64,000 bases of DNA from Candidatus Coprousia avicola (GTDB lineage: Bacteria > Actinomycetota > Coriobacteriia > Coriobacteriales > Coriobacteriaceae): positions 1-64,000 of the forward strand of contig DVMF01000011.1 in assembly GCA_018715125.1 (NCBI GenBank), given 5' to 3'. The notes under the pieces were generated by a model. It saw only the letters and a list, made by a program, of their open reading frames with translations. It was not told the origin of the DNA and made no database searches. How positions within the stretch are numbered: the first letter of the stretch is position 1; every line of letters starts with the position of its first letter. Shown here piece after piece: positions 4,101 to 45,387 of this stretch. The translations under genes and the position numbers were made by a program.

Positions 4101-5836
4101 CGGATGACCTTGGTGAAGACGTTCTCGATGATGGAGCGGCAGAGCCCCGCCATGATGTCGTCGGGTCCCTTGCCGCGCCGCTGCTCGGACACCACGCTCG
4201 AGTTCATGAACACGGTGCAGCGGCTGCCGAGCGCCGCGGGCTCCTTCGAGCGGAACGCCGCCTCGGCGATGCCCTCGACGGGGATGCCGAGGTTGGCGGC
4301 GAAGCCCTCCAAAAACGAGCCGCACCCCGCCGAGCACGCCTCGTTGACCACGATGTCGGTCAGCACCCCGTCGCGCAACCAGATGGCCTTCATATCCTGC
4401 CCGCCGATATCGAGCACAAACGTCGCGTCCGGCACCGCAAGCGCCGCCGCGCGCGCATGGGCGACGGTCTCGACGGTGTGGTAGTCCGCATGAAACGCGC
4501 GGGCGAACAGCTCCTCGCCGTAACCCGTCGTGCCCACGGCGCTTATGACAAGGTTCACCCCCGCGGCGCGCCACCGGTCGCGCAGGGCGATGAGGCCCGT
4601 GCGGGCCACGTCGAGCGGCTTACCCTCGTTGGAGGCGTAGAACGAATCGATCAACGCGCCCGCGCGGTCGATAAGGGCGAACTTGGTGGTCGTACTGCCC
4701 GAGTCGATGCCGAGGTAGGCATGCACGGTCTCGCCCGGGCGATATGCCGTCGGGCCCGGGGCGGGCACCTCTGCCGGATGTCGGCGCGCAAAGGCGGCGC
4801 GCTCGGCATCGTCGGCAAAAAACGGTGCGGCCGCCGCCTCGTCGGTCGCGGGCGGATGCGCCGAGAGGTCGCGCAGCGCGGCGATGCCCCGGGCAAGATC
4901 GAGGTCGCATGCGTTGTCCGCAAAGAGCTCGTCTAGGGCGAGGGCCGCCCCGCGGGCGATCATGACCTGGGGGTCCTCGGGCACCACGGCGTCGGCCCCG
5001 CCGAGCTCCAACTGCTCGGCGAACACGCGCACGAGCGTGGGGTGATAGGCGAGCGTCCCTCCCTCAAAGATGACGGGCGCCTCGATATCGATGCCCTGCG
5101 CCAGGCCGCCGATGGTCTGGCGCGCCACGGCGTGGAGCGCCGAGAGCGCGAGGTCGGCGCGGGAGATGCCCTGATTGAGCAGGGGCTGGATGTCGGTCTT
5201 GGCGTAGACGCCGCATCGGCCCGAGATCTCGTACACGCGCGCGCCCGCCGCCGCGAGCCCCTCGAACTCCTCCGGTGTCGCGCCGAGGAGCTTTGCCATC
5301 TCGTCGATAAAGGCGCCGGTACCTCCCGCGCACGAGCCGTTCATGCGCATGTCCGCCACCTGCAGCTCGCCTGTCGCCTCATCCGTGCGGAAGAAGATCA
5401 TCTTGGCGTCCTGCCCACCGAGCTCGATGGCGCAGCGCACCTGGGGATAGAGCGCCCGGACGGCGATGGCGTTTGCCACCACCTCCTGCACGTACGAGGC
5501 GCCGAGGGCACGGGCGATATCGCGCGCGCCCGACCCGGTGACCGCGATGCGCGCCCGCGCTTGGGGGAACCGCTCGGCAACCGCCGCGAGCGCATCGGCC
5601 GCGCTCTCGGCCTGACGCGCCCCATGGCGACGGTAGCGCCAATAGCGGACCTCCCCCGTCTGGGCATCGATGACGACGACCTTGGTGGTAGTCGACCCGA
5701 TGTCGAGACCGATTCGCACCGCCTCCGAGGCGCGCTCCGCGCCGGGGGAGCACTCCGCCCCGGGGTCGCCAGTCGATCCCGCACCCACCGCCCCAAGGGC
5801 GCTCTTCGCCGTGTCCTCTCGCTCCGTATGCAGCAT
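1184..5836 (-). CDS. giant 2-hydroxyacyl-CoA dehydratase activator/dehydratase-like fusion protein
   Basis: 1550 residues. Two BadF/BadG/HgdC-type ASKHA ATPase modules are in tandem. The first has GLDIGSTTTK near residues 43-52 and a GSCAGGTGAF loop near 165. The second has GIDSGSTTTK near 377 and NEACSAGCGSF near 507. The Cys in each loop is of the type that ligates the bridging [4Fe-4S] cluster of HgdC-like activators. A Cys-rich CRRCNNRC segment (about 665), then an Ala/Arg/Pro-rich linker (about 715-785), lead into a DUF2229/dehydratase-D-component-like half with further conserved Cys and NDICFPAQ-type motifs. Classical activators are about 260 residues; this full fusion class occurs in anaerobes and its substrate is not established. 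Start ATG 5836 has a GGTGAG site close by; the first 40 residues are variable, so a later start is possible. It probably couples ATP hydrolysis to low-potential electron transfer. Confidence 0.85.
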   Translation of the reverse strand: MLHTEREDTAKSALGAVGAGSTGDPGAECSPGAERASEAVRIGLDIGSTTTKVVVIDAQTGEVRYWRYRRHGARQAESAADALAAVAERFPQARARIAVTGSGARDIARALGASYVQEVVANAIAVRALYPQVRCAIELGGQDAKMIFFRTDEATGELQVADMRMNGSCAGGTGAFIDEMAKLLGATPEEFEGLAAAGARVYEISGRCGVYAKTDIQPLLNQGISRADLALSALHAVARQTIGGLAQGIDIEAPVIFEGGTLAYHPTLVRVFAEQLELGGADAVVPEDPQVMIARGAALALDELFADNACDLDLARGIAALRDLSAHPPATDEAAAAPFFADDAERAAFARRHPAEVPAPGPTAYRPGETVHAYLGIDSGSTTTKFALIDRAGALIDSFYASNEGKPLDVARTGLIALRDRWRAAGVNLVISAVGTTGYGEELFARAFHADYHTVETVAHARAAALAVPDATFVLDIGGQDMKAIWLRDGVLTDIVVNEACSAGCGSFLEGFAANLGIPVEGIAEAAFRSKEPAALGSRCTVFMNSSVVSEQRRGKGPDDIMAGLCRSIIENVFTKVIRVANLDRLGACIVVQGGTFQNDAVLRAFEQYLGRPVVRAAHPGLMGAIGVALLAAEEADGTEARATRQTASTFIGFDALEDFTHAEFSGVTCRRCNNRCARSVVAFGDGSLYVTGNRCPRGEEIDYDELVREVPAARSLTVQQGDAAAADAGAPARPGDAADAAPRASRRPEERRAADAERLEGPAPARTPAPAPNLFDERARLLFKDWPCKPVAPSRGETIGIPRVLAFWDQMPFWSTLLRALGFTVRISRPSTRRMYERGLAHVTSDTICFPAKLVHGHIRDLAAAHVDRILMPIITAVPSENVMKTSEWMCAVVKGYPYVLKNSDDPARRFGIPFDTPLFHWYTRRDRDRQLTAFLRDTYGVGESAARRAIAQADAAECSFTEELSRRGEEVLADVRRRGTYAVVLASRPYHNDPLVNHGIPKLFSDAGIAVIPPDAVPGVREVDLSRSRLDVVNNFHARMLASAVIAASTPELEYVQLVSFGCGHDAYLSDEIVRLMREIADKAPLILKVDESDATGPVRIRVRSFIETVARRRRDAAGRPAAATGPRPLPDPYPVKYTRPMRREKVMLVPNTSHAFCRLMTAAMRREGVRAEPLPVGHEEAIRLGKRYVHNDICFPAQMTIGESLAALMSGRYKDCDVAIMTGKYIGDCRLTHYMPLLRQALDDAGFADVPIATNDDADAHGAYPGFKLSLAASMEIAWGLPMIDALEALLRRMRPYETVPGAADAAFERALDEVMNGIEAHGLRGAEEGFARAIDIMKGVPYDRSHPRPTVLIVGEYLLNFHPGANHDIERYLERNGLEVIEARMTDVIRKSYFYKHAQVREYHVDLPVAERAWYATADRLFDVAHDRADRIARAHPLYEPPVRLPELAAVSDEVLHHTFDAGEGVLIPAEILEHAAQGCRAFVILQPFGCLPNHVVGRGLIRALKERYPDAQILPLDYDPDVSFANVENRLQMLIMNARAAASAS

Positions 5837-5996
5837 ATCTCACCAACACATCGAGCGCCGCAGCGCATATGCGGCGCACCTCGTCCTTTGATAAAACGCA
5901 CGTCTCTATACCCCGCCGCCGACCCGCTATTCGGTGTTTCGCAAATCTCTTTCGGTACCTCATTATTATTGACGAAGCGTCTGCGACACAGGGCTC

Positions 5997-6005
5997 TGCT
6001 ACCAT
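5997..6005 (+). promoter_or_regulatory. extended -10 promoter of the D,D-carboxypeptidase gene
   Basis: TG (5997-5998), one base, then TACCAT (6000-6005), 35 nt before the start codon. The wider GCTCTG-n-TAC-n-ATGGG context is shared with the promoters I propose for thrC (49242-49250) and ygiQ (52574-52582). No good -35 is found at 16-18 nt, as expected for extended -10 promoters. The 203-bp spacer is divergent, so it must also hold the promoter of the dehydratase activator gene. Confidence 0.5.
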
Positions 6006-6039
6006 GGGAGACCCTGCTCACCCGTACGAAAGGTGCTCC

Positions 6040-7404
6040 ATGGCCCTCTTGTTACGCGCGCATGACGTCACGTCCTCCCCCCACCCGCTCCGCGCTCGCA
6101 TCTGCGCGCTCGCCTGCCTTATCGCACTCACGCTCTCCGCGCTCGCCCCCACCGCCGCCGCGGCACTCACCGACCCCGCCCTCGAGGCGACCGCCGCGCT
6201 CCTCGTCGAGCCCACCTCGGGGACCGTTCTCTACGAGCTCAACGCCGACGAGACGCGCTACCCCGCCTCCACCACCAAGATCATGACGGCGCTCATAACG
6301 CTCGAGAACGCGGACCTCACCCAACAGGTCACCGTCGAGGAAGGCGACTTCACCAACGTGACCGCCGATAGCTCCGTCGCCGGCTTTGAGCCGGGCGAGG
6401 TGCTCACCGTCGAGCAGCTGCTCTACGGCCTCATGCTCCCCAGCGGCAACGACGCCTCCTACATCCTCGCGCGCGCCGTAGCCGGCGACGTCGACACGTT
6501 CGTGCAGATGATGAACGACCGGGCCGCCGAGCTCGGCTGCACGGGCACGCACTTTGCCAACCCCTGCGGCCTGCACGACGACAACCACTACACAACGGCG
6601 CGCGACCTCATGCGCATCACCCAAGCCGCCATGGCCAACCCCACGTTCGCGCAGATCGTCTCCACGCCGAGCTTTGAGCTCCCCGCGACCAACCTGCAGG
6701 AGGCGCGCACCCTCGAGAACTCCAATCTGCTGCTCGACAGCACGTCAAGCGTCTACTACGCACCCGCCCAAGGCATCAAGACGGGCAACACCACCGAGGC
6801 CGGCCGCTGCCTCGTGGCCGCCGCCAGCCAAGATGACGTCACGCTCTACTCCGTCGTGCTCGGCTGCGCGGACGCCGAGATTCCCGCGAGCCTCACCGAG
6901 ACGAAGCGCCTGTTCGAGTGGGCGTATGCCGAGTGGTCCGTACAGGAGATCGTCACGGCGGGCACGGCGCTTCAAACCGTCGATGTCGTCGATGCCCACC
7001 AGGGCGAGCAGCTCCAAGTTACCGCCGACGGCACCCTCGCCAAGCTGCTGCCCAACGACACCGACCACGCGGCCATCACCGTCTCCTTCGACCTACCCGA
7101 GGAGTTCTGCGCGCCCTACACGCAGGGCGACGTTATCGGCTCGGCGACCTATACGCTGAACGGCGAGCTCCTCGGCAAGGTCACGCTCTCCGCCGGCAAC
7201 GACGTCGACCTCTCGGCGCTGGCGCAGATCCGCCACATCGCCCTCGGCATCATCTCGAGCCCCATCACCTGGGTCGTATTGGGCGTCTTCGTCGTCCTCA
7301 TCATCGCGAGCATCATGCGCGGGTGGCAGCAGCGTCGCCGTCGCCTCACCTCGCAACCGCGCCACTCCCAGCCCCCGCGCTCGCGCGGCGCACACTTCAA
7401 ATAA
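6040..7404 (+). CDS. D-alanyl-D-alanine carboxypeptidase, DacF/PBP5 family (S11 peptidase)
   Basis: 454-residue low-molecular-weight penicillin-binding protein that trims the terminal D-Ala from peptidoglycan stem peptides outside the membrane. The three active-site motifs are present: STTK at 77-80, SGN at 135-137, KTG at 247-249. An N-terminal hydrophobic segment (about 19-44, ending in an Ala-rich cleavage-like region) is an export signal. A second hydrophobic helix near the C-terminus (about 405-425), followed by an Arg-rich tail, indicates membrane anchoring by a transmembrane helix, where PBP5 uses an amphipathic one. The frame is open further upstream, but ATG 6040 has GAAAGG at proper spacing and starts directly before the signal peptide. 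Monocistronic; a hairpin and a repeat field follow. Confidence 0.92.
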   Translation: MALLLRAHDVTSSPHPLRARICALACLIALTLSALAPTAAAALTDPALEATAALLVEPTSGTVLYELNADETRYPASTTKIMTALITLENADLTQQVTVEEGDFTNVTADSSVAGFEPGEVLTVEQLLYGLMLPSGNDASYILARAVAGDVDTFVQMMNDRAAELGCTGTHFANPCGLHDDNHYTTARDLMRITQAAMANPTFAQIVSTPSFELPATNLQEARTLENSNLLLDSTSSVYYAPAQGIKTGNTTEAGRCLVAAASQDDVTLYSVVLGCADAEIPASLTETKRLFEWAYAEWSVQEIVTAGTALQTVDVVDAHQGEQLQVTADGTLAKLLPNDTDHAAITVSFDLPEEFCAPYTQGDVIGSATYTLNGELLGKVTLSAGNDVDLSALAQIRHIALGIISSPITWVVLGVFVVLIIASIMRGWQQRRRRLTSQPRHSQPPRSRGAHFK

Positions 7405-7480
7405 GGCGTACCGCCGCCTCGGGCCTGCAGAGAGCGCGCTTCAGGCTAGCGACCCGCCGTCTCAGCCCCGCGCCCGCGAA

Positions 7481-7536
7481 AAAAGTCACGCCTGCGGTCA
7501 GCGGGAGCACCCGAACCGACCGCAGGCGTGACTTTT
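7481..7536. terminator. long perfect hairpin after the carboxypeptidase gene (bidirectional terminator-like)
   Basis: A perfect 19-bp inverted repeat (7481-7499 with 7518-7536) around an 18-nt loop. The stem ends in four A:T pairs, so each strand has a T run at the foot of the stem. It sits 77 bp after the carboxypeptidase stop. It could terminate transcription from either side, but its length and perfection also fit a repeated extragenic palindrome. Confidence 0.55.
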
Positions 7537-7642
7537 CCCAAAGGGCAACGGAAAATGGCGGGGGCAGACGGCCTGCCACATCCACGGTGGCTTGGCGGGT
7601 TGCGGAAAAGTAGGGGCAAACCACCAGGTTGCATGTCCGCAA

Positions 7643-7876
7643 TACCGCGGGGAGAAAACCGCCGGATTGCATAGTTTTCAGGGGACAGAACGGGCGGATT
7701 GCATCTTTCTATACAATCCGCCCGTTCTTTGCACGCCGCTTAGCTGGCATTTTGCTGGCCCAGAACCACGACATACAATCCGCCTATACAATCTGCCGCT
7801 TCTCGCCCCTCGGGGCCCGGGCATACAATCCGGCGGCTTTCTCCCCGCGGGGACCCCGGCATACAATCCGCCCCGC
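7643..7876. repeat. intergenic cluster of ATACAATCCGSC repeats
   Basis: The 723-bp spacer 7405-8127 has no credible gene. Within it the 12-mer ATACAATCCGSC or a close variant occurs about seven times: on the plus strand near 7711, 7773, 7786, 7823 and 7861, and inverted near 7661-7672 and 7691-7703. Two inverted copies form a perfect 15-bp hairpin (7687-7701 with 7714-7728). Units 7786-7822 and 7823-7860 are tandem copies of about 37-38 nt, each ending in a CCCC-GGGG palindrome, and a third unit begins at 7861. The block 7645-7672 is a near-exact inverted copy of 7822-7851. The pattern suggests a degenerated extragenic repeat family. Confidence 0.7.
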
Positions 7877-8127
7877 TCCCAGACCACCCCATCCTTCCCG
7901 GCGGCGCGACGCGCCACTTCGCCCCACGCAGTCGGCGGGCGCACGATGCGGCGCCGCACGCCCTTCCCGACGCCTGCCCTACCGTTCACCAATCAGCCGT
8001 TGCCCTCGCCGCGCGCGGGGGGCTAGAGTTGAGGCGATGCGTTGTCACATCGTCACTTAGGCGCTCATCTCCCGTCGCAGCGCCTTGGGATACGGCTAGG
8101 AAACGGCAACGAAAGGAGGCAGGGCTT

Positions 8128-10029
<1,902 letters not shown>

Positions 10030-10044
10030 GGACAGGCGAGCGAC

Positions 10045-11400
10045 ATGTTTAAGAAGATTCTCATCGCCAACCGCGGCGAGATCGCCCTGCGCGTCGTGCG
10101 CGCCTGCAAGGACCTCGGCGTGACGTCGTGCATCGCCTACTCCACCGCCGACCGCCTGACTGCGGCCGTCGAGGAGGCGGACGAGCGCGTCTGCATCGGC
10201 CCCGCGCCCTCCGCTCAAAGCTACCTCGACATGCAGCGCCTGATCGGCGCCGCCGTCTCACGCGGATGCGAGGCCGTGCACCCCGGCTACGGTTTCTTGT
10301 CCGAGAACGCCGAGTTTGCGCGCAAGTGCCTGGAGAACGGCCTCACGTTTATCGGCCCCGACCCCGACGTCATCGACCGCATGGGCGAGAAGAGCAACGC
10401 CAAGCAGACCATGAAGGCGGCGGGCGTTCCCACCGTACCCGGCTCGGACGGCGCCGTCGAGACCGTCGAGGAGGCGGCGAGGTTTGCCGAGGAGGTCGGC
10501 TACCCCGTGCTCATCAAGGCGAGCGCCGGCGGCGGCGGCAAGGGCATGCGCGAGGTCCACGACCCCGCCGACCTCGAGCACGAGTACCAGGCGGCCCGCG
10601 CCGAGGCCCGCGTGGCCTTTGCCAACGACGAGGTGTACCTCGAGAAGCTCATCACCCGCCCGCGCCACGTCGAGGTGCAGGTTATGGCCGACAACTTTGG
10701 CCATGCGGCCGCCGTGTGCGAGCGCGACTGCTCCGTCCAGCGCCGTCATCAGAAGCTCTGCGAGGAGGCGCCGAGCCCCGCCCTCACCCCGGAGCTCCGC
10801 CACAAGATGTGCGAGACCGCGGTGCGCGCCGTACGCGCCACCGGATACACCAACGCCGGCACCATCGAGTTCCTCCTCGACGAGGATGGCAGCTTCTACT
10901 TCATGGAGATGAACACGCGCATCCAGGTCGAGCATCCCGTGACTGAGGAGATCACCCGCACCGACCTCGTCTGCGAGCAGCTGCACATCGCCTCCGGCGA
11001 ACCCATGACCATCCCCGATGGCGGCATCGACACGCCGGACGGCCACGCCTTCGAATTCCGCATCAACGCCGAGGACCCCGAGCACAACTTCCGTCCGTGC
11101 CCGGGCACCATCACCAAGCTGCGCCTCCCCGGCGGCCCCGGCGTGCGCGTCGACACCCATGTGTACGAGGGCTACACGATACCCCCGACCTACGACTCGC
11201 TCGTAGCGAAGCTTATCGTGTGGGGCCCCACGCGCGACGCCGCCCTCGCCCGCGCCAAGCGCGCTCTCGACGAGTTTGAGATCGAGGGCATCAAGACGAC
11301 CCTGCCGTTCCACCGCGCCGTCGTCCGCGAGCCCGACTACGCCGCCGGCATCGTGTACACGGACTTCATCCCCACGCACATGCCGCAGTTCCTAGCATAA
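10045..11400 (+). CDS. accC: biotin carboxylase subunit
   Basis: 451 residues, the normal AccC length. It carboxylates biotin on the carrier domain with ATP and bicarbonate. The protein begins with the AccC-typical FKKILIANRGEIA. The ATP-grasp glycine loop GGGGKGM is near residue 165, and the EMNTRIQVEHPVTE catalytic segment is near 287-300. It follows the carboxyltransferase-carrier fusion by 15 bp with a weak AAGGA site, so translation is probably coupled. It could serve both a pyruvate carboxylase and an acetyl-CoA carboxylase; accA/accD are not in the window. Confidence 0.95.
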   Translation: MFKKILIANRGEIALRVVRACKDLGVTSCIAYSTADRLTAAVEEADERVCIGPAPSAQSYLDMQRLIGAAVSRGCEAVHPGYGFLSENAEFARKCLENGLTFIGPDPDVIDRMGEKSNAKQTMKAAGVPTVPGSDGAVETVEEAARFAEEVGYPVLIKASAGGGGKGMREVHDPADLEHEYQAARAEARVAFANDEVYLEKLITRPRHVEVQVMADNFGHAAAVCERDCSVQRRHQKLCEEAPSPALTPELRHKMCETAVRAVRATGYTNAGTIEFLLDEDGSFYFMEMNTRIQVEHPVTEEITRTDLVCEQLHIASGEPMTIPDGGIDTPDGHAFEFRINAEDPEHNFRPCPGTITKLRLPGGPGVRVDTHVYEGYTIPPTYDSLVAKLIVWGPTRDAALARAKRALDEFEIEGIKTTLPFHRAVVREPDYAAGIVYTDFIPTHMPQFLA

Positions 11401-11414
11401 CGCCGCCCCATAAC

Positions 11415-11483
11415 GGTCGGTCCACCAACGGGTGCGTCCTCGCCGCTTCGCGGACGGGGATGCGCCCTTTTGATGGACCGACC
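11415..11483. terminator. bidirectional terminator between accC and the DUF1016 gene
   Basis: Nested inverted repeats. An outer 10-bp arm (11415-11424 with 11474-11483) encloses a GC-rich inner stem (about 11430-11443 with 11453-11466) followed by CTTTTG. It lies between the ends of two convergent genes. Confidence 0.65.
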
Positions 11484-11568
11484 TCTTGCCGTGTTGCTGA
11501 TGGGCAGCACGTCGCAAGGCCCGCCTCTACCGCCTCAGTCCAAACAAGGCGCTAGCACCGCAGCGCAA

Positions 11569-12711
11569 TCAGTTGCCGCCCTCCTCCAACAATGCCTTGA
11601 GTTGGTCGATAGGTGGCAACGCATCCAACAGCTCCCGCGTCATATCCTTCGACGTCTTATAGGTGGCCACACCCATGGGTTTCGTAAAGTCTTGAATCAC
11701 GTAGTCAACAAACCCCTTGTCCATGTCTTTGCACAACACAAGGCCTATGGAGGGGTTCTCGTGCTCGCGACGCTCAAAGTCGTCCAAGATGCGCAGATAG
11801 CCGGAGAGCTGGCCGAGATATGCCGGCTTGAAGGGGCCGCTCTTAAGCTCAACCGCGACTAAGCAGTTGAGGTCGCGGTTGAAGAACAAAAGGTCGATGT
11901 ACTGATCGACGCCAAAGGCATCGAGATGATACTGGTTTCCCACAAATGTGAAAGCCCGTCCGAATGTCATGATGAACTGTTTGATGTTCTGCACGATGCC
12001 CTGCTCTAGCACGCGCTCGTCGATATCGTTCGCATCGCGCACGCCGAGCTCCTCAACATTGATAAAGTCGAGCAGATACTCGTCCTTGAACGTAGCGATA
12101 GCGCGCAGCGCCTGCTGACCCTTTGGCAGCGCCGAGAGGAAGTTGCTGGAGACCTCTCCTTGGTGATGAAAGTCATCCGCCTTCAGTGAGCGTTTGAGCG
12201 CCTCTACACTTAAGTGCTCAACAGCACACTTGTGGATGTAGAAGAGCCTCTCGTCGAAAGTCTTCGTCGCTGCCAAAATCGCACAATGATGAGTAAATCC
12301 AATAGAGAGAAAATCCTCTGGAGAGCACCCGCCGGAGTCCATCAATCGCAACTGATGAATTGCGAGAATATTCTCAAATCCTATTTCATCAGTTGCAACT
12401 GATGAAATAGAGGGTGCAGCGTCCTCGTGACAGCCCGCCCAGGCTTCAAAAAACATCCTCATGTAGCGAAGGTTTGTCTCTGAGAAGCCCCTCAGTCCCG
12501 GCAGCTCCTTCTGCAACTGTTCGCTGATGGTTTTAAGCGCACCGGTGCCCCATGCCCCATTGCGCGTATTGGCGGAAACGTAACCTCCCACGGCAAAGTA
12601 CAGCTGCAGCTGCTGAGCGTTGGCGCTCTTCGCTGCGGCATATTGCGCCTGGAAAATCGCCGTCTTGATGGTCTGAACTGCCTCGCGATAGCCCGTAATC
12701 TCCGGCGTCAT
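11569..12711 (-). CDS. YhcG/DUF1016-family PDDEXK nuclease
   Basis: 380 residues. The N-terminal DUF1016 domain (about 1-165) is helical and DNA-binding-like, with the family's LQLYFAVGGYVS and FSETNLRYMRMFF signatures. The C-terminal half (about 240-345) carries a PD-(D/E)XK core: Asp273 in a DLLFF strand, then Glu288-X-Lys290 in AVELKSG. The family occurs as accessory genes near restriction-modification loci and as solitary genes; its biological role is poorly defined. Here it is solitary and visibly less GC-rich than its neighbours, which suggests horizontal acquisition. The start has AAAAGGAGG at 5-nt spacing. A 30-nt perfect palindrome lies inside the coding sequence at codons 101-110. 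Confidence 0.88.
   Translation of the reverse strand: MTPEITGYREAVQTIKTAIFQAQYAAAKSANAQQLQLYFAVGGYVSANTRNGAWGTGALKTISEQLQKELPGLRGFSETNLRYMRMFFEAWAGCHEDAAPSISSVATDEIGFENILAIHQLRLMDSGGCSPEDFLSIGFTHHCAILAATKTFDERLFYIHKCAVEHLSVEALKRSLKADDFHHQGEVSSNFLSALPKGQQALRAIATFKDEYLLDFINVEELGVRDANDIDERVLEQGIVQNIKQFIMTFGRAFTFVGNQYHLDAFGVDQYIDLLFFNRDLNCLVAVELKSGPFKPAYLGQLSGYLRILDDFERREHENPSIGLVLCKDMDKGFVDYVIQDFTKPMGVATYKTSKDMTRELLDALPPIDQLKALLEEGGN
12381..12410. repeat. 30-nt perfect palindrome inside the DUF1016 gene
   Basis: Arms of 15 nt with no loop, reading identically on both strands. It sits in an AT-rich part of the gene, encodes residues about 101-110, and is flanked at 12349-12366 by a partial copy sharing CAACTGATGAA. 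Such a perfect palindrome is unlikely by chance and looks like a protein-binding or recombination site. Confidence 0.8.
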
Positions 12712-12831
12712 GGTGTCCTCCTTTTCTCACGAACTTATGTTCCATGATGCGTTCTATGCTACCAACGCGTGCGGACACAATAATGCGCGTACCATAGAGA
12801 CGTTTTCCGCTTCGCTTCGTTTGGGAGATGT

Positions 12832-13845
12832 ATGTCTAGACCCTCATCCGCACTCGACATCGGCTCTTTCGATGTCCGCACCAACTCCGCGCGCCCCGTT
12901 CTCACACGCACGTGGTGCGTGGCCGCGCTCGCCCTCATCTGCTGCGCGCTCTGGGGCAGCGCGATTCCCTGCATCAAGATCGGCTACGAGCTTCTCGGCA
13001 TCCAAGACGGCAACGTGCCGTCGGAATTCCTCTTCGCCGGCGTGCGCTTTATGCTTGCCGGCTCCATTGCACTTGCCGCCGCAGCCGTAACAAGACGTCG
13101 CCTGCCACGTATCTCACGTGCGGGATGGCCGCTCGTCATCAGGCTCTCACTCGCCCAAACCATCGTGCAGTATGCCTTCTTCTATATCGGCGTCTCGAAC
13201 GCCTCTGGCGTGCGCGGATCGATCGTCAACGCCATGAACACGTTTCTCTGCGTGCTGGTGGCAGCGCTCGTATTCCGGCAGGAACGGCTCACGGCGCGCA
13301 AGGTCCTCGGCTGCGCCGTGGGATTTGCCGGAGTCGTCATCGTCAACCTCACCGGTGGCGATAGCGGCGGCACCGTCACGCTCACGGGCGAGGGCTTCAT
13401 CCTTATTGCCGCCATCTCCTACGCTGTCTCATCCGCCCTCATCCACACCTACTCACAGCGCGAGGACCCCGTAGCGCTCAGCGGCTACCAGTTTGTGCTC
13501 GGTGGCGCGGTGCTCACCTTGGTGGGTGCGTTGCTCGGCGGGAGCCTTCCACGCCTTACGCCCGCAGGCATTGCCATGGTTCTCTATCTTGCCTGCGTAT
13601 CGGGCGTAGCGTACTCGCTCTGGTCGATTCTGCTCAAATACAACCCAACCTCGCGCGTAGCAATCTTTGGCTTTATGAACCCGGTCTTTGGTGTGGTGCT
13701 CTCGAGCATCCTTCTTGGCGAGGGCGCCTCCCTACCCTGGCTGCAGACCGCACTCGCCTTGGTGCTCATTGCCCTCGGCATCGTTATCGTCAATCGGCCG
13801 GAAGGCGATGCCGCACCCTCCCCTAGCGCAGAACGCGCCGGCTGA
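12832..13845 (+). CDS. EamA-family (DMT superfamily) transporter
   Basis: 337 residues with about ten hydrophobic segments arranged as two EamA repeats (about 30-160 and 180-320). The first begins with the ALWGSAIPCIKIG pattern typical of the family, and the repeat unit ends with the usual ILLGE-type segment near residue 290. It is an inner-membrane exporter of metabolites or drugs; the substrate cannot be told from sequence. GGGAGAT precedes ATG 12832. The 3' end overlaps the 3' end of the convergent MFS gene by 23 bp. Confidence 0.87.
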   Translation: MSRPSSALDIGSFDVRTNSARPVLTRTWCVAALALICCALWGSAIPCIKIGYELLGIQDGNVPSEFLFAGVRFMLAGSIALAAAAVTRRRLPRISRAGWPLVIRLSLAQTIVQYAFFYIGVSNASGVRGSIVNAMNTFLCVLVAALVFRQERLTARKVLGCAVGFAGVVIVNLTGGDSGGTVTLTGEGFILIAAISYAVSSALIHTYSQREDPVALSGYQFVLGGAVLTLVGALLGGSLPRLTPAGIAMVLYLACVSGVAYSLWSILLKYNPTSRVAIFGFMNPVFGVVLSSILLGEGASLPWLQTALALVLIALGIVIVNRPEGDAAPSPSAERAG

Positions 13846-15049
13846 TAAGAGCCTGAAGGCCGAGGCACAGTAGCACAAGCATCCAGAGGAGCGCATAGCC
13901 GCCGCAAGAAACGACTGCGGTTCCCACGGCCGAGCCGACGCCGCCGCAGGCAAAGACCGCAAAGCCTATAAGTCCCGTGCAAAGCCCGGACTGCGCAGGA
14001 TCCGCATCCATGGAGAGCGTCACGAGCGTGGGCTGCACCAAGATGTAGCCAAGGCCCAGACTCGCCGTCGCCACAAGTAACCGGATCCACGAGCCCGTAG
14101 CGCACGAAAGGGCAAGCGCAGCTGCGGACACCATACCTGCGCACTCGCCCACGGAGATGACGCCGCTGAGCCCGCGCGCACCGCCGAGTCTGCCGGCGAG
14201 CGCCCCGCCGATCAGGCAGAAGAAGCCGTAGAGCATCATCACCAAACCCGATTGCGTGGAGGTGAGCCCGCAGACCTCGGAAAGAAAGGTTCCCATCAGC
14301 CCGTACGTACCAAGGAACAGAAAGCCCGTCGAGCAGGCGAGCAAAAAGACCGCGCGATGCGGACCGAAGAAGATGCGCCATGCGTCCCGGAAAAACGAAC
14401 TGACAGGGTTGTTATGCGCCAGGCGTTTGCCGGCATGCGCGCTCGAGTGAACACTGTCTCGCACAGGGGAACGTCCAGCATCACGCAAGGTGAACAGGCC
14501 GAGCCAAGCGAGAGCTGCCAACATGCCAAATGCAGCAAAGGCCGCGCGCCAGCCCATCAGATCGGTGAGGATACCGCCGAGCCCCGCCGAGAGCCCCTGA
14601 CCGGTAAAGGTGATGCCCATGAGGATGCCCACCGCACCGGCACGATGCTCAGGGCCCACTACATCGCCCACAAACGCTTGCGAGACCGAGATGATACCCG
14701 CCGCAAAGCAGCCGGTTATGATGCGTGCCACCACTAGAAGTGGCAGGTTGGGCGCTACGGCGCAGAGAAACGTGCCCGCGCAAAGGCCGAGTACGATGAT
14801 GCGCAGCAGGCGTAGGCGGCCCACGCCGTCACCGATACGGCCGCATACCGGCTGCAGCGCCCCATAGGGTACGAGATAGGCCGTCAAGATGATGGCTGCC
14901 GCCGTCGGCGCTACGGCGAGCGTGTTTGCGATGGCGGGGAGCGCCGGAGAGACAAACCAGTTGTCCGCCGCAGAAACAAGCCCGCAAAATCCAAGCGTTG
15001 CAACCGTATGCATTTGCGCGGCAGAGAGCCGCCCTCTTCTTTGCTGCAT
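13823..15049 (-). CDS. MFS transporter (drug/sugar-efflux type)
   Basis: 408 residues, about twelve transmembrane segments in two halves joined by a cytoplasmic loop near 195-215. The early GRIGDGVGRLRLL stretch after TM2 matches the MFS motif A position (G-R-x-G-D-x-x-G-R-R-x). The profile resembles Bcr/CflA-like multidrug exporters, but the substrate is unknown. The frame is open upstream, but ATG 15049 is chosen because it is preceded by GGAGG; this site is the 3' arm of the hairpin at 15057-15086. Confidence 0.88.
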   Translation of the reverse strand: MQQRRGRLSAAQMHTVATLGFCGLVSAADNWFVSPALPAIANTLAVAPTAAAIILTAYLVPYGALQPVCGRIGDGVGRLRLLRIIVLGLCAGTFLCAVAPNLPLLVVARIITGCFAAGIISVSQAFVGDVVGPEHRAGAVGILMGITFTGQGLSAGLGGILTDLMGWRAAFAAFGMLAALAWLGLFTLRDAGRSPVRDSVHSSAHAGKRLAHNNPVSSFFRDAWRIFFGPHRAVFLLACSTGFLFLGTYGLMGTFLSEVCGLTSTQSGLVMMLYGFFCLIGGALAGRLGGARGLSGVISVGECAGMVSAAALALSCATGSWIRLLVATASLGLGYILVQPTLVTLSMDADPAQSGLCTGLIGFAVFACGGVGSAVGTAVVSCGGYALLWMLVLLCLGLQALISRRVLR

Positions 15050-15086
15050 ACAAAAACCTCCGCACCTCATTATAGGAGTGCGGAGG
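15049..15086 (-). terminator. terminator-like hairpin whose 3' arm holds the MFS ribosome site
   Basis: On the minus strand a 9-bp stem (15078-15086 with 15057-15065, 12-nt loop) is followed at once by TTTTT and then by the MFS ATG. The 3' arm contains the GGAGG ribosome site. It can therefore end transcripts coming from the DUF2798 gene and also sequester the MFS ribosome site in read-through transcripts. Confidence 0.7.
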
Positions 15087-15104
15087 TCAACAAACGACGC
15101 TTTG

Positions 15105-15608
15105 CTACGCTGCAACGGGTTTCTCGAGTACCGTGCCCACCGGGAACGCGCGACGGAAAGCCCAGCGCGACAAAGGCCCGGCAACAAGCAGGTTCCAAGG
15201 CAGAGCGGCAACGAAGTTGAACGGGATGTTTGCAATCCACATGCCCGGAATGGCGGCCACCACACCCGTATGAGAAAACGCCTCGATGGCGCCATAGAGC
15301 GACATGAAAAGGACCATCGGGAATACCATCATCGTGCTGATGGCAAGCGTTATGGAACGCGGCGAGCTCTTACCCGGCTTCACCAGGAAGCGAAACGCAA
15401 ACCACTTGGCAAAACGGCTTGCCACAAAGACATCGAGCAGCATGGCGACGATGTAGGCGGGCGGAAACCCCACCCATGCCTCGGCAACGATATCCAGATT
15501 GAGCTGCCAGCCGTGCACGCGCGCGACGTTGTATAGCGACATGCCAAGCACCATGCAGAAGCACATGATGACAGTGAAGATGAGACTCTCGCGTTTGTTG
15601 GTGGGCAT
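15105..15608 (-). CDS. DUF2798 family membrane protein
   Basis: 167 residues with four predicted transmembrane helices in two similar halves (about 8-30, 45-65, 88-110, 125-150). Each half contains an F-P-x-M/A-V/Y-x-V-M/A-type motif. DUF2798 proteins have no established function. It is upstream of the MFS gene on the same strand, 55 bp away, and separated from it by a terminator-like hairpin, so the two may be partly co-transcribed. No clear ribosome site better than AAAGGTATC precedes ATG 15608. Confidence 0.75.
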   Translation of the reverse strand: MPTNKRESLIFTVIMCFCMVLGMSLYNVARVHGWQLNLDIVAEAWVGFPPAYIVAMLLDVFVASRFAKWFAFRFLVKPGKSSPRSITLAISTMMVFPMVLFMSLYGAIEAFSHTGVVAAIPGMWIANIPFNFVAALPWNLLVAGPLSRWAFRRAFPVGTVLEKPVAA

Positions 15609-15773
15609 ACAGATACCTTTCTCGACGTAGATGGGCGCCGTACGAAACGGGCGGGACAGACGGTTCTTGTCCTAAATACCGCTCACCGACGTTTATCTAC
15701 CGTTCACGAGCGCTTTTCTACCCTATCCGAAATCAGGGATCTTCGTAAGCGGAAAGTTTATGAAGGCAGCGCG

Positions 15774-16241
15774 CTACAGCTCGCGCACGAGATACACCAT
15801 ATCGACAAGCTGCACGCCCGCCTCGTAGATGGGGTGGTCGTAGTTGTCGGTAAAGAAGTCGGGCACCACATGCGAGCGCCTGAAACCGCAACGCTCGTAA
15901 AATGGCACTGTAAGCGGGCTTTCGCCCGTGCCTACTTGGAGCGTGCGATAGCGTCCCGCATACGTTGCCGCAACGTGCTCGATGAGCGCCCGGCCGTAAC
16001 CTCGCCCCTGATAGGTCGGCCCCACCGCAAGGCTCTTGATCTCCAGCACGCCGTCGCCCTCGTCGACCACAAGGCACTCCGCAATCGCGGGCGCCTCCGT
16101 TGACGACATATCGTCGTCCCCGTCGACGAGCACCCACATGTCGCCTCGATCGATATAGCGAGCCACCATTTCCGGCTGCTCGTCCGCCAAGAGCAGAAAG
16201 GGCATATACCGTTCTCGGTCACCTTGAACAAGCTGGATCAT
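15774..16241 (-). CDS. GNAT-family N-acetyltransferase
   Basis: 155 residues. The acetyl-CoA pyrophosphate loop GPTYQGRGYGRALIEH (about 75-90) is the GNAT motif A, followed by an LQVGTGESPLTVPFYERCGF segment typical of the Yjab/YdhI-like small GNATs. The acceptor substrate is unknown. Start ATG 16241 is preceded by GGAGG at 5-nt spacing. A GTG two codons upstream would lie inside that site and is rejected. Monocistronic. Confidence 0.85.
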   Translation of the reverse strand: MIQLVQGDRERYMPFLLLADEQPEMVARYIDRGDMWVLVDGDDDMSSTEAPAIAECLVVDEGDGVLEIKSLAVGPTYQGRGYGRALIEHVAATYAGRYRTLQVGTGESPLTVPFYERCGFRRSHVVPDFFTDNYDHPIYEAGVQLVDMVYLVREL

Positions 16242-16295
16242 GAGCACCTCCGCTCGCGAGTCGACTGCTATATCGTACCTACTGAAACGAGCACG

Positions 16296-16329
16296 CAGCG
16301 GGCCCCGGGTGAATCCCCAGGGCCCGCTG
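16296..16329 (-). terminator. hairpin downstream of lysS
   Basis: A perfect 10-bp GC-rich stem (16296-16305 with 16320-16329), with a loop that can form a further GGG/CCC pairing. It lies 50 bp after the lysS stop in the minus direction. No U-run follows, so termination efficiency is uncertain. Confidence 0.5.
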
Positions 16330-16378
16330 TCATCAAAAGAAGTCTCTTACCGTTGGCTACTTAACGCCAGCCGCAACG

Positions 16379-18379
16379 TTAGCAGAGCTTGGCGCCCGCG
16401 GGGATGCGGTCGTCGAGTATAAGGAGGTTCAGACGCTCCTCGGCATCGTCGCCCTCGCCCTCCTTGTGGACGGCGCTAATGAGCATGCCGCAGGAATCGA
16501 TGCCCATCATCTTGCGCGGCGGGAGGTTCACGATGGCGACGCAGGTCTTGCCCACCAGGTCCTCGGGCTCGTAGAACGCATGGATGCCGGAGAGGATGGT
16601 GCGGTCGGTGCCAGAGCCGTCGTCGAGCGTGAACTGCAGCAGCTTCTTGCTCTTCTTGACCGCCTCGCACGCCTTGACCTTCACCACGCGGAAATCGCTC
16701 TTGCAGAACGTGTCGAAATCGACCAGGTCCTCAAAGAGCGGCTCCACCACCACGTTGCGGTAGTCGATGGTTGCAAGCTTGGGCGTCACAAACGGCGCAG
16801 GGCTCGCGGCGGCGTCGGCGGAAACCTCGTCCCCGGCGGCTGCGGCGGCGGCACCCGATGAGGCGCCCTTCTCCGGCTTCATGTGCGGGAACAGGAGCAC
16901 GTCACGGATGGACGCCGAGTCGGTCAGCAGCATGACCACGCGGTCGATGCCGATGCCGATGCCGCCCGCCGGGGGCATGCCGTACTCGAGCGCGCGCACG
17001 TAATCCTCGTCGTACTCCATGGCCTCGTCATCGCCGGCGAACTTCTCCTCCACCTGCTTGCGGAAGCGCTCGGCCTGATCGACCGGGTCGTTGAGCTCGG
17101 AGAACGCGTTGGCGTACTCGTGTCCGGCAATCACGAGCTCAAAGCGGTGCGTGAGGCGCGGGTCGTCCTCGTGACGCTTGGCGAGCGGAGAGACCTCGAC
17201 GGGATAATCGGTCACGAAGGTGGGGTTCACCAGCGACGGCTCACCGATCTCGTCGTAGAGCTCGGCGATGAGCTTGCCGGCCGTCCACTCGGGCTTGACC
17301 TCGATGCCGGCCTCTCGCGCGGCGGCCGCCAGCTCCTCCACCGGCGTGTCCAGGTCAACGGCGCGGCCCAGGGCCCCCGACACGACCTCGGTCATGGGGA
17401 TGCTCGGCCACGTGCCGGACAGGTCGATGGCCTGACCCTGGTACTCGATGACCTCGGGGTTGCCGATGGCGGCGTTGGCAGCCTTGATGACGCCCTCGGC
17501 GAGCTCCTTCATGCCGTCGAGGTCGGAGTAGGCGCGGTAGGCCTCCATGGTGGTGAACTCAGGGTTGTGCGTGAGGTCCATGCCCTCGTTGCGAAAGATG
17601 CGGCCGATCTCAAAGACGCGCTCAAACCCGCCCACGAGCAGGCGCTTCAGGTGAAGCTCAGTGGCGATGCGCAGATAGCACTCCTGGTTGAGCGCGTTGA
17701 AGTGCGTGATGAACGGCTTGGCCGTGGCGCCGCCCTGGATGGTCTGCAGGATCGGCGTCTCGACCTCCATGTACCCCGTCTCCTCCATGTAGCGGCGGAA
17801 GGCGGAGATGATCGCGGAGCGCTTGGCGAACGTCGCGCGCACGTCCTCGTTGACGATGAGGTCGACGTAGCGGCGACGGTAGCGGGTCTCCTTGTCCGAG
17901 AGACCGTGGAACTTCTCGGGCAGAGGGCGCACGGCCTTGCTGAGCAGGGTGAGCGCACGGGGCGCCACCGAGAGCTGCCCGCGGCGGGTGCGCACGACGA
18001 CGCCCTCGGCACCCACGATATCGCCCAGATCGAGCTCGCCCAGAAGCTCCCACGCCTCTGCGGGCATGTCGTTGATGCGGCAGAAGAGCTGGATGTCACC
18101 GGTGGGGTCGCGCAGCACCACGAACATGATCTTGCCCTGGCCGCGCTTGGCCACCACGCGGCCGCCGATCTTGACGACGTCGGTGGTATCCTCGCCGTCG
18201 GCGAGCGTCGCATAGCGCTCCTCGATGGCGGAGGCGTAATCGGTCACATCTGAGTGCTCGGGATAGGGGTTGCGTCCCGCATCGATCATTGCGGCGCGCT
18301 TGGCAAGGCGGTGCGCGCGCTCGTCGTTTAAGGTATCGGGCGCCGCCTCAGCGGCTTGGTTCATCTCGGTATCTGCCAT
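16379..18379 (-). CDS. lysS: class II lysyl-tRNA synthetase with C-terminal tRNA-binding domain
   Basis: 666 residues, about 150 longer than ordinary LysRS. The N-terminal OB-fold anticodon-binding domain spans about 60-165. The class II catalytic domain spans about 170-500, with motif 2 FRNEGMDLTHNPEFT (near 262) and motif 3 GGIGIGIDR (near 470). An Ala/Ser-rich linker (about 505-535) then joins a Trbp111/EMAP-II-like tRNA-binding OB domain (about 555-666), the module usually found at the C-terminus of MetRS. It would add nonspecific tRNA affinity. Cytoplasmic, charges tRNA-Lys. greA lies just upstream on the same strand and is separated by a strong terminator. Confidence 0.95.
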   Translation of the reverse strand: MADTEMNQAAEAAPDTLNDERAHRLAKRAAMIDAGRNPYPEHSDVTDYASAIEERYATLADGEDTTDVVKIGGRVVAKRGQGKIMFVVLRDPTGDIQLFCRINDMPAEAWELLGELDLGDIVGAEGVVVRTRRGQLSVAPRALTLLSKAVRPLPEKFHGLSDKETRYRRRYVDLIVNEDVRATFAKRSAIISAFRRYMEETGYMEVETPILQTIQGGATAKPFITHFNALNQECYLRIATELHLKRLLVGGFERVFEIGRIFRNEGMDLTHNPEFTTMEAYRAYSDLDGMKELAEGVIKAANAAIGNPEVIEYQGQAIDLSGTWPSIPMTEVVSGALGRAVDLDTPVEELAAAAREAGIEVKPEWTAGKLIAELYDEIGEPSLVNPTFVTDYPVEVSPLAKRHEDDPRLTHRFELVIAGHEYANAFSELNDPVDQAERFRKQVEEKFAGDDEAMEYDEDYVRALEYGMPPAGGIGIGIDRVVMLLTDSASIRDVLLFPHMKPEKGASSGAAAAAAGDEVSADAAASPAPFVTPKLATIDYRNVVVEPLFEDLVDFDTFCKSDFRVVKVKACEAVKKSKKLLQFTLDDGSGTDRTILSGIHAFYEPEDLVGKTCVAIVNLPPRKMMGIDSCGMLISAVHKEGEGDDAEERLNLLILDDRIPAGAKLC

Positions 18380-43251: not shown

Positions 43252-43275
43252 CGCATAAAGACGCCCTAACAGATG

Positions 43276-43316
43276 CGGCGGCGCGACCCTCTCAGGCGGG
43301 TCGCGCCGCCGTTTTC
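43276..43316 (+). terminator. intrinsic terminator of the ABC exporter operon
   Basis: A perfect 14-bp GC stem (43276-43289 with 43298-43311) with 8-nt loop, followed by TTTTCC. Confidence 0.9.
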
Positions 43317-43470
43317 CGCAGGTATGGACCCTCGCAACAGAAGGTGGGACCTTATCCGACAAGCACCGCGGTCCCACAGCCAGCGGCGCGGGAATCGAAC
43401 GGCGCGCTCTCGTATGCCAAACCCCCTGTTTCAGAAACAAACGAGACATGCCGCGACGTACCCGGGGCGA

Positions 43471-43529
43471 GGTGCTCGCCCAGACGGTAGAGAAAACCAC
43501 TCGCCACCTTGGATTTTACGGCGAGCACC
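43471..43529. repeat. partial copy (3) of the GAGTGGTTTTC dyad family
   Basis: A 10-bp inverted repeat (43471-43480 with 43520-43529) encloses GACGGTAG and AAAACCACTCGCC, which match one arm of the dyads at 33860 and 54836. The second arm is absent. It lies in the 525-bp gap 43252-43776 between convergent gene ends. I see no convincing gene in this gap beyond the terminator; a 90-codon minus-strand frame is noted as rejected. Confidence 0.6.
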
Positions 43530-43776
43530 ACAAACTCGACCGTCGGCATGCTCGCGCGATGCCAGTCGAGGAACTCCATCATCAGGGCGGATGGAAGACC
43601 CGACCACGCATCTACTACCACCACGAACCGCTAGACCCCTTGAAGCGTCTCGGAGACATCCGTCGGCTCCACCATAAGGCCGACGAGACCCCACAGCGCC
43701 TCGAAGCTGCGCTGCGCGCGCGTATTGCACGAATTGAACCCGTCCCCACATGTGCATGTGCACCCACATGCACACG

Positions 43777-45186
43777 CTATCGACGCGCGACCGCAATGTA
43801 GTCATATTCGCAATACCAGAAAGCTCGCTCGCAAAATTGCTGCTCGAATAGTTCGAGCGCCGCCCTCATCCATTCATAGTCGTTCCTACGCGCCAAGTCG
43901 GTCGGATCCTTTTCGTACGCCTTCCGAAAGTAATCGCTCCGATACGCGAAGCTCTCCTCAAAAAGCGCCTCGCGATCATCGTAGTCTATTGCACTCAGGT
44001 CCTTCATGTTGCTGAACACGCGAATATCGTGAAAGCCAGAGTCGGCCGGCTGGGTAAAGAGCTTCCTGCCATTCAAACGGTCCGAGACGCCCTCGGCAGT
44101 GAGGCTCTTCTCGATGATCTGCTTCATGAGGTTATGGGGGTCAGGGTAGCAGAGCTTGCTGCCATCATCGGACCCGCGCAAGATGACCCAGCCGTCCCGT
44201 GACACAAACTTGCGGAGCTGACGCAGCACCTTACGCGGGTTCTTGAGATGATGCAGGGTAAGCGCCGAGAAGAGCACGTCGATAGCATCGATGCCGTGCG
44301 CGTCGAGCACGGCGCGAAACTCCTCGGAGAAGCGCTCGCTCTCAAGATCCACAACCTCAAAAATCATCTTGGGGTTGTCGTGCATCTTGCGCGCCTGCTC
44401 GATGACCTCGGCATTGTTGTCGATGCAAAGAATCGTATCGACACGGTCCATGTTGCCAAAACGGTCCTCGGCCACATACCCGTATGCACAACCCGCGTCA
44501 AGCACCACGGCATGCTCGGGCAAACCGCCGGAGCGCTCGATGAAGTCGAGCGCAAGCTCATCCGAAGACCGCGAATTCGACGCCTGGACCTTGAGGCGCG
44601 ACGCCTCATGGTGGTACGTCGAGGAATACGCTGATTTGCGGTGCCGCTTTGCCTCGAGAAACACACTGGAGAACGGGTCTTGGGCATCGAGATCATCCAC
44701 GGGTTGCGGCATCTTAAGATCCGGTGCAACCGCGGGCTTTTCGAGTTTCCGGAGCGCCTGCTCTACAAAATCGCAGAATGCGTCGACGTTCATCTCGGCC
44801 GCATTGCAGTTCTGGTAGCTCCTCAGCGCACGCGGCAGGGCACGCGGGTCAATATCGCGCGTATAGGTAATGATCTCGCCATCCGGCTTGACTCCGTCGA
44901 GCAGGTCGGAATGGAAGCTCTGCCACTCGTAGCCAATCCAGCGTGACTCGATATACTCGAGCCGCGTACCTATCACGATGAGTACTTTCGCCGTATCAAG
45001 CGCGCCGTCGATCGAGCGCTTGTAGACGCTCTCGCCAAGCTGAAGCAAGGTCACATTGCTGTAGAAGGTTGGGATCTTGCGCGCGCAAAGCTCCCGGTAG
45101 ACGAGCTCTGCCAGCATCGCATCGTCGGCACGACGGCCGTCGTCGCCCGTGTTCTTAAAAGAGATGAAAACATCGAACGTGTCCAT
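43777..45186 (-). CDS. TIR domain - SAM-dependent methyltransferase fusion
   Basis: 469 residues. Residues 3-140 are a TIR domain: DVFISFKNTGDDG opens it, LGESVYKRSIDGAL and VLIVIGT follow, and ESRWIGYEW (80-88) carries the likely NADase Glu87. Residues 215-345 are a class I methyltransferase: motif I VVLDAGCAYGYVAE (227-240), acidic loop IDNNAE (255-260), and VLFSALTLHHLKNP (304-317). A helical C-terminus (400-469) is unassigned. GC is below that of neighbours, suggesting transfer. TIR domains in bacteria cleave or cyclise NAD+ in phage defence and toxicity; the fused methyltransferase target is unknown. GAGAGGTGGG precedes ATG 45186. The gene stands alone between a convergent ABC operon and an aldo/keto reductase; no Thoeris or CBASS partner is adjacent. 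Confidence 0.88.
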   Translation of the reverse strand: MDTFDVFISFKNTGDDGRRADDAMLAELVYRELCARKIPTFYSNVTLLQLGESVYKRSIDGALDTAKVLIVIGTRLEYIESRWIGYEWQSFHSDLLDGVKPDGEIITYTRDIDPRALPRALRSYQNCNAAEMNVDAFCDFVEQALRKLEKPAVAPDLKMPQPVDDLDAQDPFSSVFLEAKRHRKSAYSSTYHHEASRLKVQASNSRSSDELALDFIERSGGLPEHAVVLDAGCAYGYVAEDRFGNMDRVDTILCIDNNAEVIEQARKMHDNPKMIFEVVDLESERFSEEFRAVLDAHGIDAIDVLFSALTLHHLKNPRKVLRQLRKFVSRDGWVILRGSDDGSKLCYPDPHNLMKQIIEKSLTAEGVSDRLNGRKLFTQPADSGFHDIRVFSNMKDLSAIDYDDREALFEESFAYRSDYFRKAYEKDPTDLARRNDYEWMRAALELFEQQFCERAFWYCEYDYIAVARR

Positions 45187-45387
45187 GCGAACCCACCTCT
45201 CAAGCTACGCTCCTCAGAAGGCGCCCGAGTCAATTGTAAGCCGAACGGAAAGACGTTCAAAGCCGCAGGCAAAACAAGCCTGCGGAGAAATCCGTCCTCA
45301 GCCACGACGAAATCGGCCCAAGGGACGGGCCGCGGCGTCGCGCCCGTCCCCACATGACCGAAAACAGGGCCGTCCCCCGCCGCCCGC

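Follow-up and report, generated by a model that had tools for sequence, protein, structure and literature searches.

The window, i.e. the whole stretch of 64,000 nucleotides that was analysed, carries on its reverse strand a gene whose product joins a TIR domain to a class I methyltransferase domain. The gene and the features in and around it are the following.

43777..45186, (-) strand: TIR-methyltransferase gene, 469 aa, complete ORF with ATG start and full-length homologues
44737..45186, (-) strand: TIR domain, residues 1-150 (AlphaFold pLDDT 92, Foldseek and profile matches)
44926..44928, (-) strand: codon of Glu87, the putative catalytic residue, which aligns with the Glu of AbTir and BtTir
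44938-44940, (-) strand: codon of Trp83
44620..44736, (-) strand: flexible linker, residues 151-189 (pLDDT below 50 at 151-173 and 175-189)
43780..44634, (-) strand: class I methyltransferase domain, residues 185-469 (Pfam, and Foldseek match to 3mgg)
44467..44508, (-) strand: SAM-binding motif I, VVLDAGCAYGYVAE, residues 227-240, intact here and lost in six relatives
44077..44079, (-) strand: codon of Arg370, the one residue that all aligned family members share (51/51)
43819..43998, (-) strand: helical lid, residues about 397-456 (secondary structure of the model)
45233..45260, (-) strand: sigma-70-like promoter TTGAAC-16-TACAAT (sequence pattern)
43254..45387, no strand: segment missing from the same-genus genome G050 (comparison of flanking stop codons)

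A Shine-Dalgarno-like GAGGTGG lies immediately upstream of the ATG (about 45193-45200), and the sigma-70-like promoter pattern was found at 3 sites, where 0.5 were expected in shuffled sequences. The fusion gene has an ABC/FtsX transporter on one side and an aldo/keto reductase on the other, next to genes of lysine/threonine biosynthesis; the flanks comprise Asd, aspartate kinase and threonine synthase as well. Its GC content is 0.571 and its GC3 0.73, compared to 0.65-0.69 and 0.85-0.92 for the neighbours, which bears out the sequence-only reading that the gene is AT-richer than its surroundings; the description as a solitary gene holds as well, and no conserved partner was found. In G050, which does not carry the gene, the two flanking stop codons are about 47 bp apart, and the 2.1-kb segment therefore represents a clean presence/absence difference. 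All genus copies whose flanks were compared (L001, L005, L006 and L007) occupy the same place as the window gene. In the more distant three of these, most neighbours (the aldo/keto reductase, Asd, aspartate kinase and the ABC ATPase) are 80-93% identical, against 68-69% for the fusion and 66-67% for the FtsX-like gene. The FtsX gene is followed by a unique non-coding stretch of 525 bp (window 43252-43776), which opens with a G+C-rich hairpin and then TTTT, likely a terminator, and which measures about 280 bp in the near-identical L001.

The protein model consists of two rigid domains with a disordered linker (about 151-189) between them. For the window protein alone, the Pfam match to TIR_2 (E=3e-4) falls below the curated cut-off. 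A profile of 17 related TIRs, searched against the PDB, recovered BtTir (7uxr, 7e-5) and AbTir (7uwg, 2e-3), and W83 and E87 align with the conserved Trp and Glu of the W-x-x-x-E element of both proteins. Because Foldseek searches with the full model were dominated by the methyltransferase, the TIR domain was also modelled and searched alone. The isolated model (pLDDT 92) matched the TIR of SARM1 with E=6e-6, and all PDB fold matches at E<=0.001 were SARM1, TIR-1, RPP1, AbTIR or SPARTA, with MyD88 ranking only 44th. By profile and by predicted fold the TIR assignment is secure, though borderline by single-sequence Pfam. The domain combines a flavodoxin-like TIR fold with a Glu at the W-x-x-x-E position, as catalytic TIRs do, and the earlier claim of a TIR with a catalytic-type Glu87 was thus upheld by fold and alignment. 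A catalytic-type Glu alone is not proof of NADase activity, which we infer, and the domain is probably an NAD+-consuming enzyme.

The C-terminal half, residues 190-469 past the linker, was recognised by Pfam (PF13847, 1.5e-9), and its best Foldseek match was 3mgg (E=3e-15), with LahSb (6uak) also among the best-matching structures. The motif I residues of the D-x-G-x-x-x-G pattern (D230, G232 and G236) and the acids D256 and D280 are all present in the window protein. With the Rossmann-like seven-strand fold of the model, motif I and the ribose-binding acid, the domain has the hallmarks of class I enzymes, methyl transfer itself being predicted. A complete SAM methyltransferase with motif I at 227-240 had been proposed from the letters alone, and Pfam, Foldseek and the motif residues agree with this; structure prediction and fold search, suggested at the time for both halves, thus returned a TIR fold and a methyltransferase fold. 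The helical C-terminus that had been set apart as unassigned does not constitute a third domain: in the model, strands 386-396 and 457-468 are the last two of the methyltransferase sheet, and the helical lid (402-451) lies between them.

Fourteen loci came from one scan of 84,980 species genomes, and whole-genome searches added further members. In the resulting alignment of 51 family members from Coriobacteriia and Clostridia, Pfam recognised a methyltransferase in 49 and TIR_2 in 48. Most carriers are bacteria of the gut. Within the genus of the window genome the fusion is present in 5 of 8 genomes, and within the Clostridia in 26 of 297 genomes of one order, 2 of 188 of another and 1 of 397 Lachnospiraceae; a sample of 378 genomes of the window's phylum contained no carrier besides the seed genome. 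The nearest locus is that of Collinsella sp. An268, with a fusion protein that is 98% identical, which points to Collinsella as the genus of the window genome. Searches of plasmids, phages and viral contigs recovered no TIR-bearing relatives and no copies of the fusion, and an origin from a mobile element was rejected on this basis. Pfam, NCBIfam and PADLOC hold no model that spans the fusion, and searches of the open-access literature turned up neither a family name for such a fusion nor a paper that describes it. Accordingly, the earlier statement that no characterised TIR-methyltransferase is known stands for PADLOC and open-access full text.

Comparison within the alignment revealed what is kept and what is swapped. 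The Glu at position 87 occurs in all 49 TIR-bearing members, across TIR clusters that are separate by BLAST, the remaining two (L089 and L107) being methyltransferases that lack a TIR. SAM motif I is intact in 45 of the 51 members and destroyed in six (L024, L102, L103, L104, L105 and L111; L102 has retained the acid at 256). On the methyltransferase tree three changes account for these losses, and neither the TIR Glu nor Arg370 is missing from any of the six. By BLAST, TIR clusters with 35, 11, 2 and 1 members were distinguished; only the TIR part went into this clustering, which preceded the building of the methyltransferase tree. On that tree, where the long branches of L024, L111 and L012 are less surely placed, the TIR cluster changes 9 times where 3 changes would suffice, and the 11-member cluster as a single clade was rejected (p-AU 4.6e-54). 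Given these results, we conclude that a lasting methyltransferase-fold partner has repeatedly been joined to different TIRs, the methyltransferase being the constant module and the TIRs interchangeable. As judged by a dN/dS of 0.13 against the nearest homologue, and of 0.03-0.06 in sister lineages, the fusion gene is under purifying selection. The values per half (methyltransferase 0.09, TIR 0.15) indicate that selection on the methyltransferase half is at least as strong as that on the TIR half.

The window protein can be compared to several known systems. SpbK of Bacillus subtilis ICEBs1 is also a single-gene protein with a TIR and a second domain, and its NADase is active on TIR clustering; TIR NADases in general work on TIR association, and in SpbK the TIRs are clustered by the second domain when it binds the phage portal (PMC12847820). 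That domain is an N-terminal helical bundle, however, whereas the window protein has an unrelated, C-terminal methyltransferase fold. AbTir and BtTir share the TIR fold and the aligned Trp and Glu, but are not joined to a methyltransferase, and overall identity with the window TIR is low. Thoeris (ThsB), CBASS TIR-SAVED and SPARTA TIR-APAZ have a TIR domain in common with the window protein, other family members match their TIR profiles weakly, and the SPARTA TIR is among the fold matches of the window TIR. Unlike in Thoeris, no adjacent ThsA effector and no Thoeris gene were found by PADLOC at the window flanks. CBASS TIR effectors are fused to SAVED or STING and neighbour a CD-NTase; the C-terminal half here is a methyltransferase, and no SAVED, STING, CD-NTase or Argonaute gene was found in the window neighbourhood or the fusion. 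On the methyltransferase side, 3mgg (Methanosarcina mazei) and LahSb lack a TIR, and the family-invariant Arg370 is absent from 3mgg in the sequence alignment. The methylation-associated defence protein Mad2 of PADLOC weakly matches the methyltransferase stretch of 32 of the 51 members, but the match is partial and generic (window residues 204-336 against 271-394 of 492 only); a full-length mad2 with other mad genes was not found, and the mad3/mad8 matches near the window gene are an ordinary ABC ATPase. We class the fusion among the TIR effectors, with a methyltransferase fold as its distinct partner domain.

The neighbours of relatives elsewhere are mostly unrelated housekeeping genes. When 138 neighbour proteins of 19 relatives were compared to 127 proteins from control places on the same contigs (PADLOC, E<=1e-10), no enrichment of defence genes was found, with 11 PADLOC families near the relatives versus 42 at the control places. 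Likewise, clustering of the neighbours at 48 loci gave no conserved operon partner beyond related genomes, the larger clusters being ABC transporters and antisense or low-complexity ORFs, and no conserved biosynthetic neighbours were found around the relatives. The neighbourhood survey that had been called for thus placed the homologues neither in defence islands nor consistently in biosynthetic operons, and the neighbourhood lends the defence claim no support. Some loci (L002, L004 and L097) have another TIR gene close by.

Considering the above, the reading we prefer, at a probability of around 50%, is that of a stand-alone TIR effector, in which a probable NADase TIR is combined with a methyltransferase-fold sensor or scaffold. 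The N-terminal TIR would consume NAD+ when TIR domains are brought together, and the C-terminal domain would keep it inactive until binding of a ligand or phage component clusters the TIRs, the outcome being either a loss of NAD+, with growth arrest or abortive infection, or the release of a signalling nucleotide. The sensing and clustering role is proposed by analogy with the second domain of SpbK, and as a guess the ligand or protein might be bound by the lid region around Arg370. Computation shows both folds, the kept Glu, the swapping of TIRs, the recurrent SAM-motif losses and an orphan gene that is patchy in occurrence, with the empty site in G050; all of these were counted in favour of this reading, as were the disordered linker and the GT4-conflict/NACHT neighbour at L012. 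The lack of defence-gene enrichment near the relatives and of phage, plasmid or viral-contig copies was counted against it, as was the intact, selectively constrained methyltransferase half of the window protein; lacking a defence-island context, a defence role is less likely. Gating, the trigger and an anti-phage role are what we infer here, and the trigger may be either a phage or a metabolic state. The gating of the TIR by the methyltransferase, proposed earlier, has gained comparative support in that the Glu is never lost and SAM binding is lost repeatedly, with the gating itself still conjectural. More tentatively, the methyltransferase fold may have become a sensor of infection or of a metabolite, with exchangeable TIR NADases under its control. 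The fusion would then represent an immune architecture of gut bacteria that needs a single gene, and some members would be ligand-binding pseudo-methyltransferases that do not use SAM.

A similar switch could serve metabolism or stress rather than phage defence; the methyltransferase fold would then sense SAM/SAH or some housekeeping metabolite, and under such stress the TIR would lower NAD+ or make a signal. The housekeeping neighbourhoods, with their lack of defence-gene enrichment, fit this idea, but a patchy presence within one genus, together with TIRs that were exchanged repeatedly, is what one expects of conflict genes and not of core metabolism, and we regard the idea as unlikely, if worth keeping in mind. 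In three Lachnospiraceae-type loci a luxS-like gene (SAM cycle, recognised by eye) adjoins the fusion; it lies upstream at two loci and on the opposite side at the third, and as the side differs the adjacency may be chance, so that the linkage was dropped as evidence. It is also rather unlikely that the protein is a bifunctional enzyme, with methyltransferase and TIR working in sequence, e.g. by methylating an NAD-derived product or target, and with methyl transfer as part of the output. The intact SAM motif in the window protein and most members, the strong purifying selection on the methyltransferase half and two Clostridia loci with ATP-grasp/radical-SAM proteins, as in small-molecule pathways, speak for such an enzyme; the about three losses of the SAM motif with the TIR Glu kept, and the want of conserved biosynthetic neighbours, speak against it. 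Since SAM binding is lost in members that retain the catalytic Glu, methyl transfer is unlikely to be the output common to the family, and the earlier suggestion of two successive activities on a single product is at odds with the members whose motif is gone. In the window protein, where the motif is intact and the methyltransferase half under purifying selection, methyl transfer or SAM sensing may nevertheless matter.

Many animal TIRs are adaptors, and with the methyltransferase motifs mostly intact one could picture a TIR without catalysis, which through protein interaction would recruit an ordinary methyltransferase or regulate it. Given that the catalytic-position Glu is fully conserved across the exchanged TIRs, that the nearest folds are NADases and MyD88 ranks so low, and that some members have no SAM motif at all, this is very improbable. 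Least probable of all is a TIR effector directed against the animal host or against rival bacteria of the gut. Its appeal lies in the gut habitat of most carriers and in the NAD products that gut bacterial TIRs yield, which were studied in gnotobiotic mice and children (PMC9092222), but the TIR begins at the very N-terminus, leaving no room for a signal peptide, and no secretion genes were recognised near the window gene.

TIR proteins are common to bacterial, plant and animal immunity, and the varying part is the sensor of danger. If the preferred reading of a stand-alone effector is true, the methyltransferase fold would be a class of sensor that is absent from the sources searched, constant while the TIRs are swapped and SAM binding is sometimes lost, and NAD+ signalling would be linked to SAM or to a methyltransferase substrate. 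The recurrence of the fusion in many gut bacteria, with interchangeable TIRs, suggests an NAD+ switch that is triggered by stress or phage. As only one gene is involved and natural variants already separate the two activities, this is easy to test.

Several loci of relatives deserve description in their own right. In two Clostridia MAGs (L012, 1-9353, and L013, 2239-11159), ATP-grasp/radical-SAM proteins and a 900-aa pentapeptide-repeat protein stand in a row with one or two TIR-methyltransferases per locus, of different TIR type; this looks like an undescribed conflict or biosynthetic operon. Beside the locus with two members, L012 encodes the GT4-conflict/NACHT protein (12719-17275; PF20706, 2.5e-77). 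In L004, a row of genes (4053-7957) immediately precedes the TIR-methyltransferase; it encodes a methyltransferase, a C-terminally extended TIR protein, a squalene-cyclase/prenyltransferase-like product and a TrpF-like one. Convergent to the TIR-methyltransferase of L002 lies a gene (9442-12417) for a protein of 991 aa that begins with a TIR and ends in an HD domain (nucleotidase-like). In both L092 (9990-15344) and L097 (9569-13908), the TIR-methyltransferase adjoins a common cluster of large proteins that lack a Pfam match (783, 700 and 638 aa), accompanied by a protein that looks like ParA/MinD; L097 has a further TIR protein there. A DUF4062-like start of the L023 methyltransferase was discarded, as Pfam gave no support for it in that protein. 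Finally, same-order genomes (L025, L026, L028, L029, L030, L032 and L033) encode members of the same methyltransferase family (E 1e-31 to 1e-38) that carry a C-terminal RimI-like GNAT acetyltransferase in place of the N-terminal TIR.
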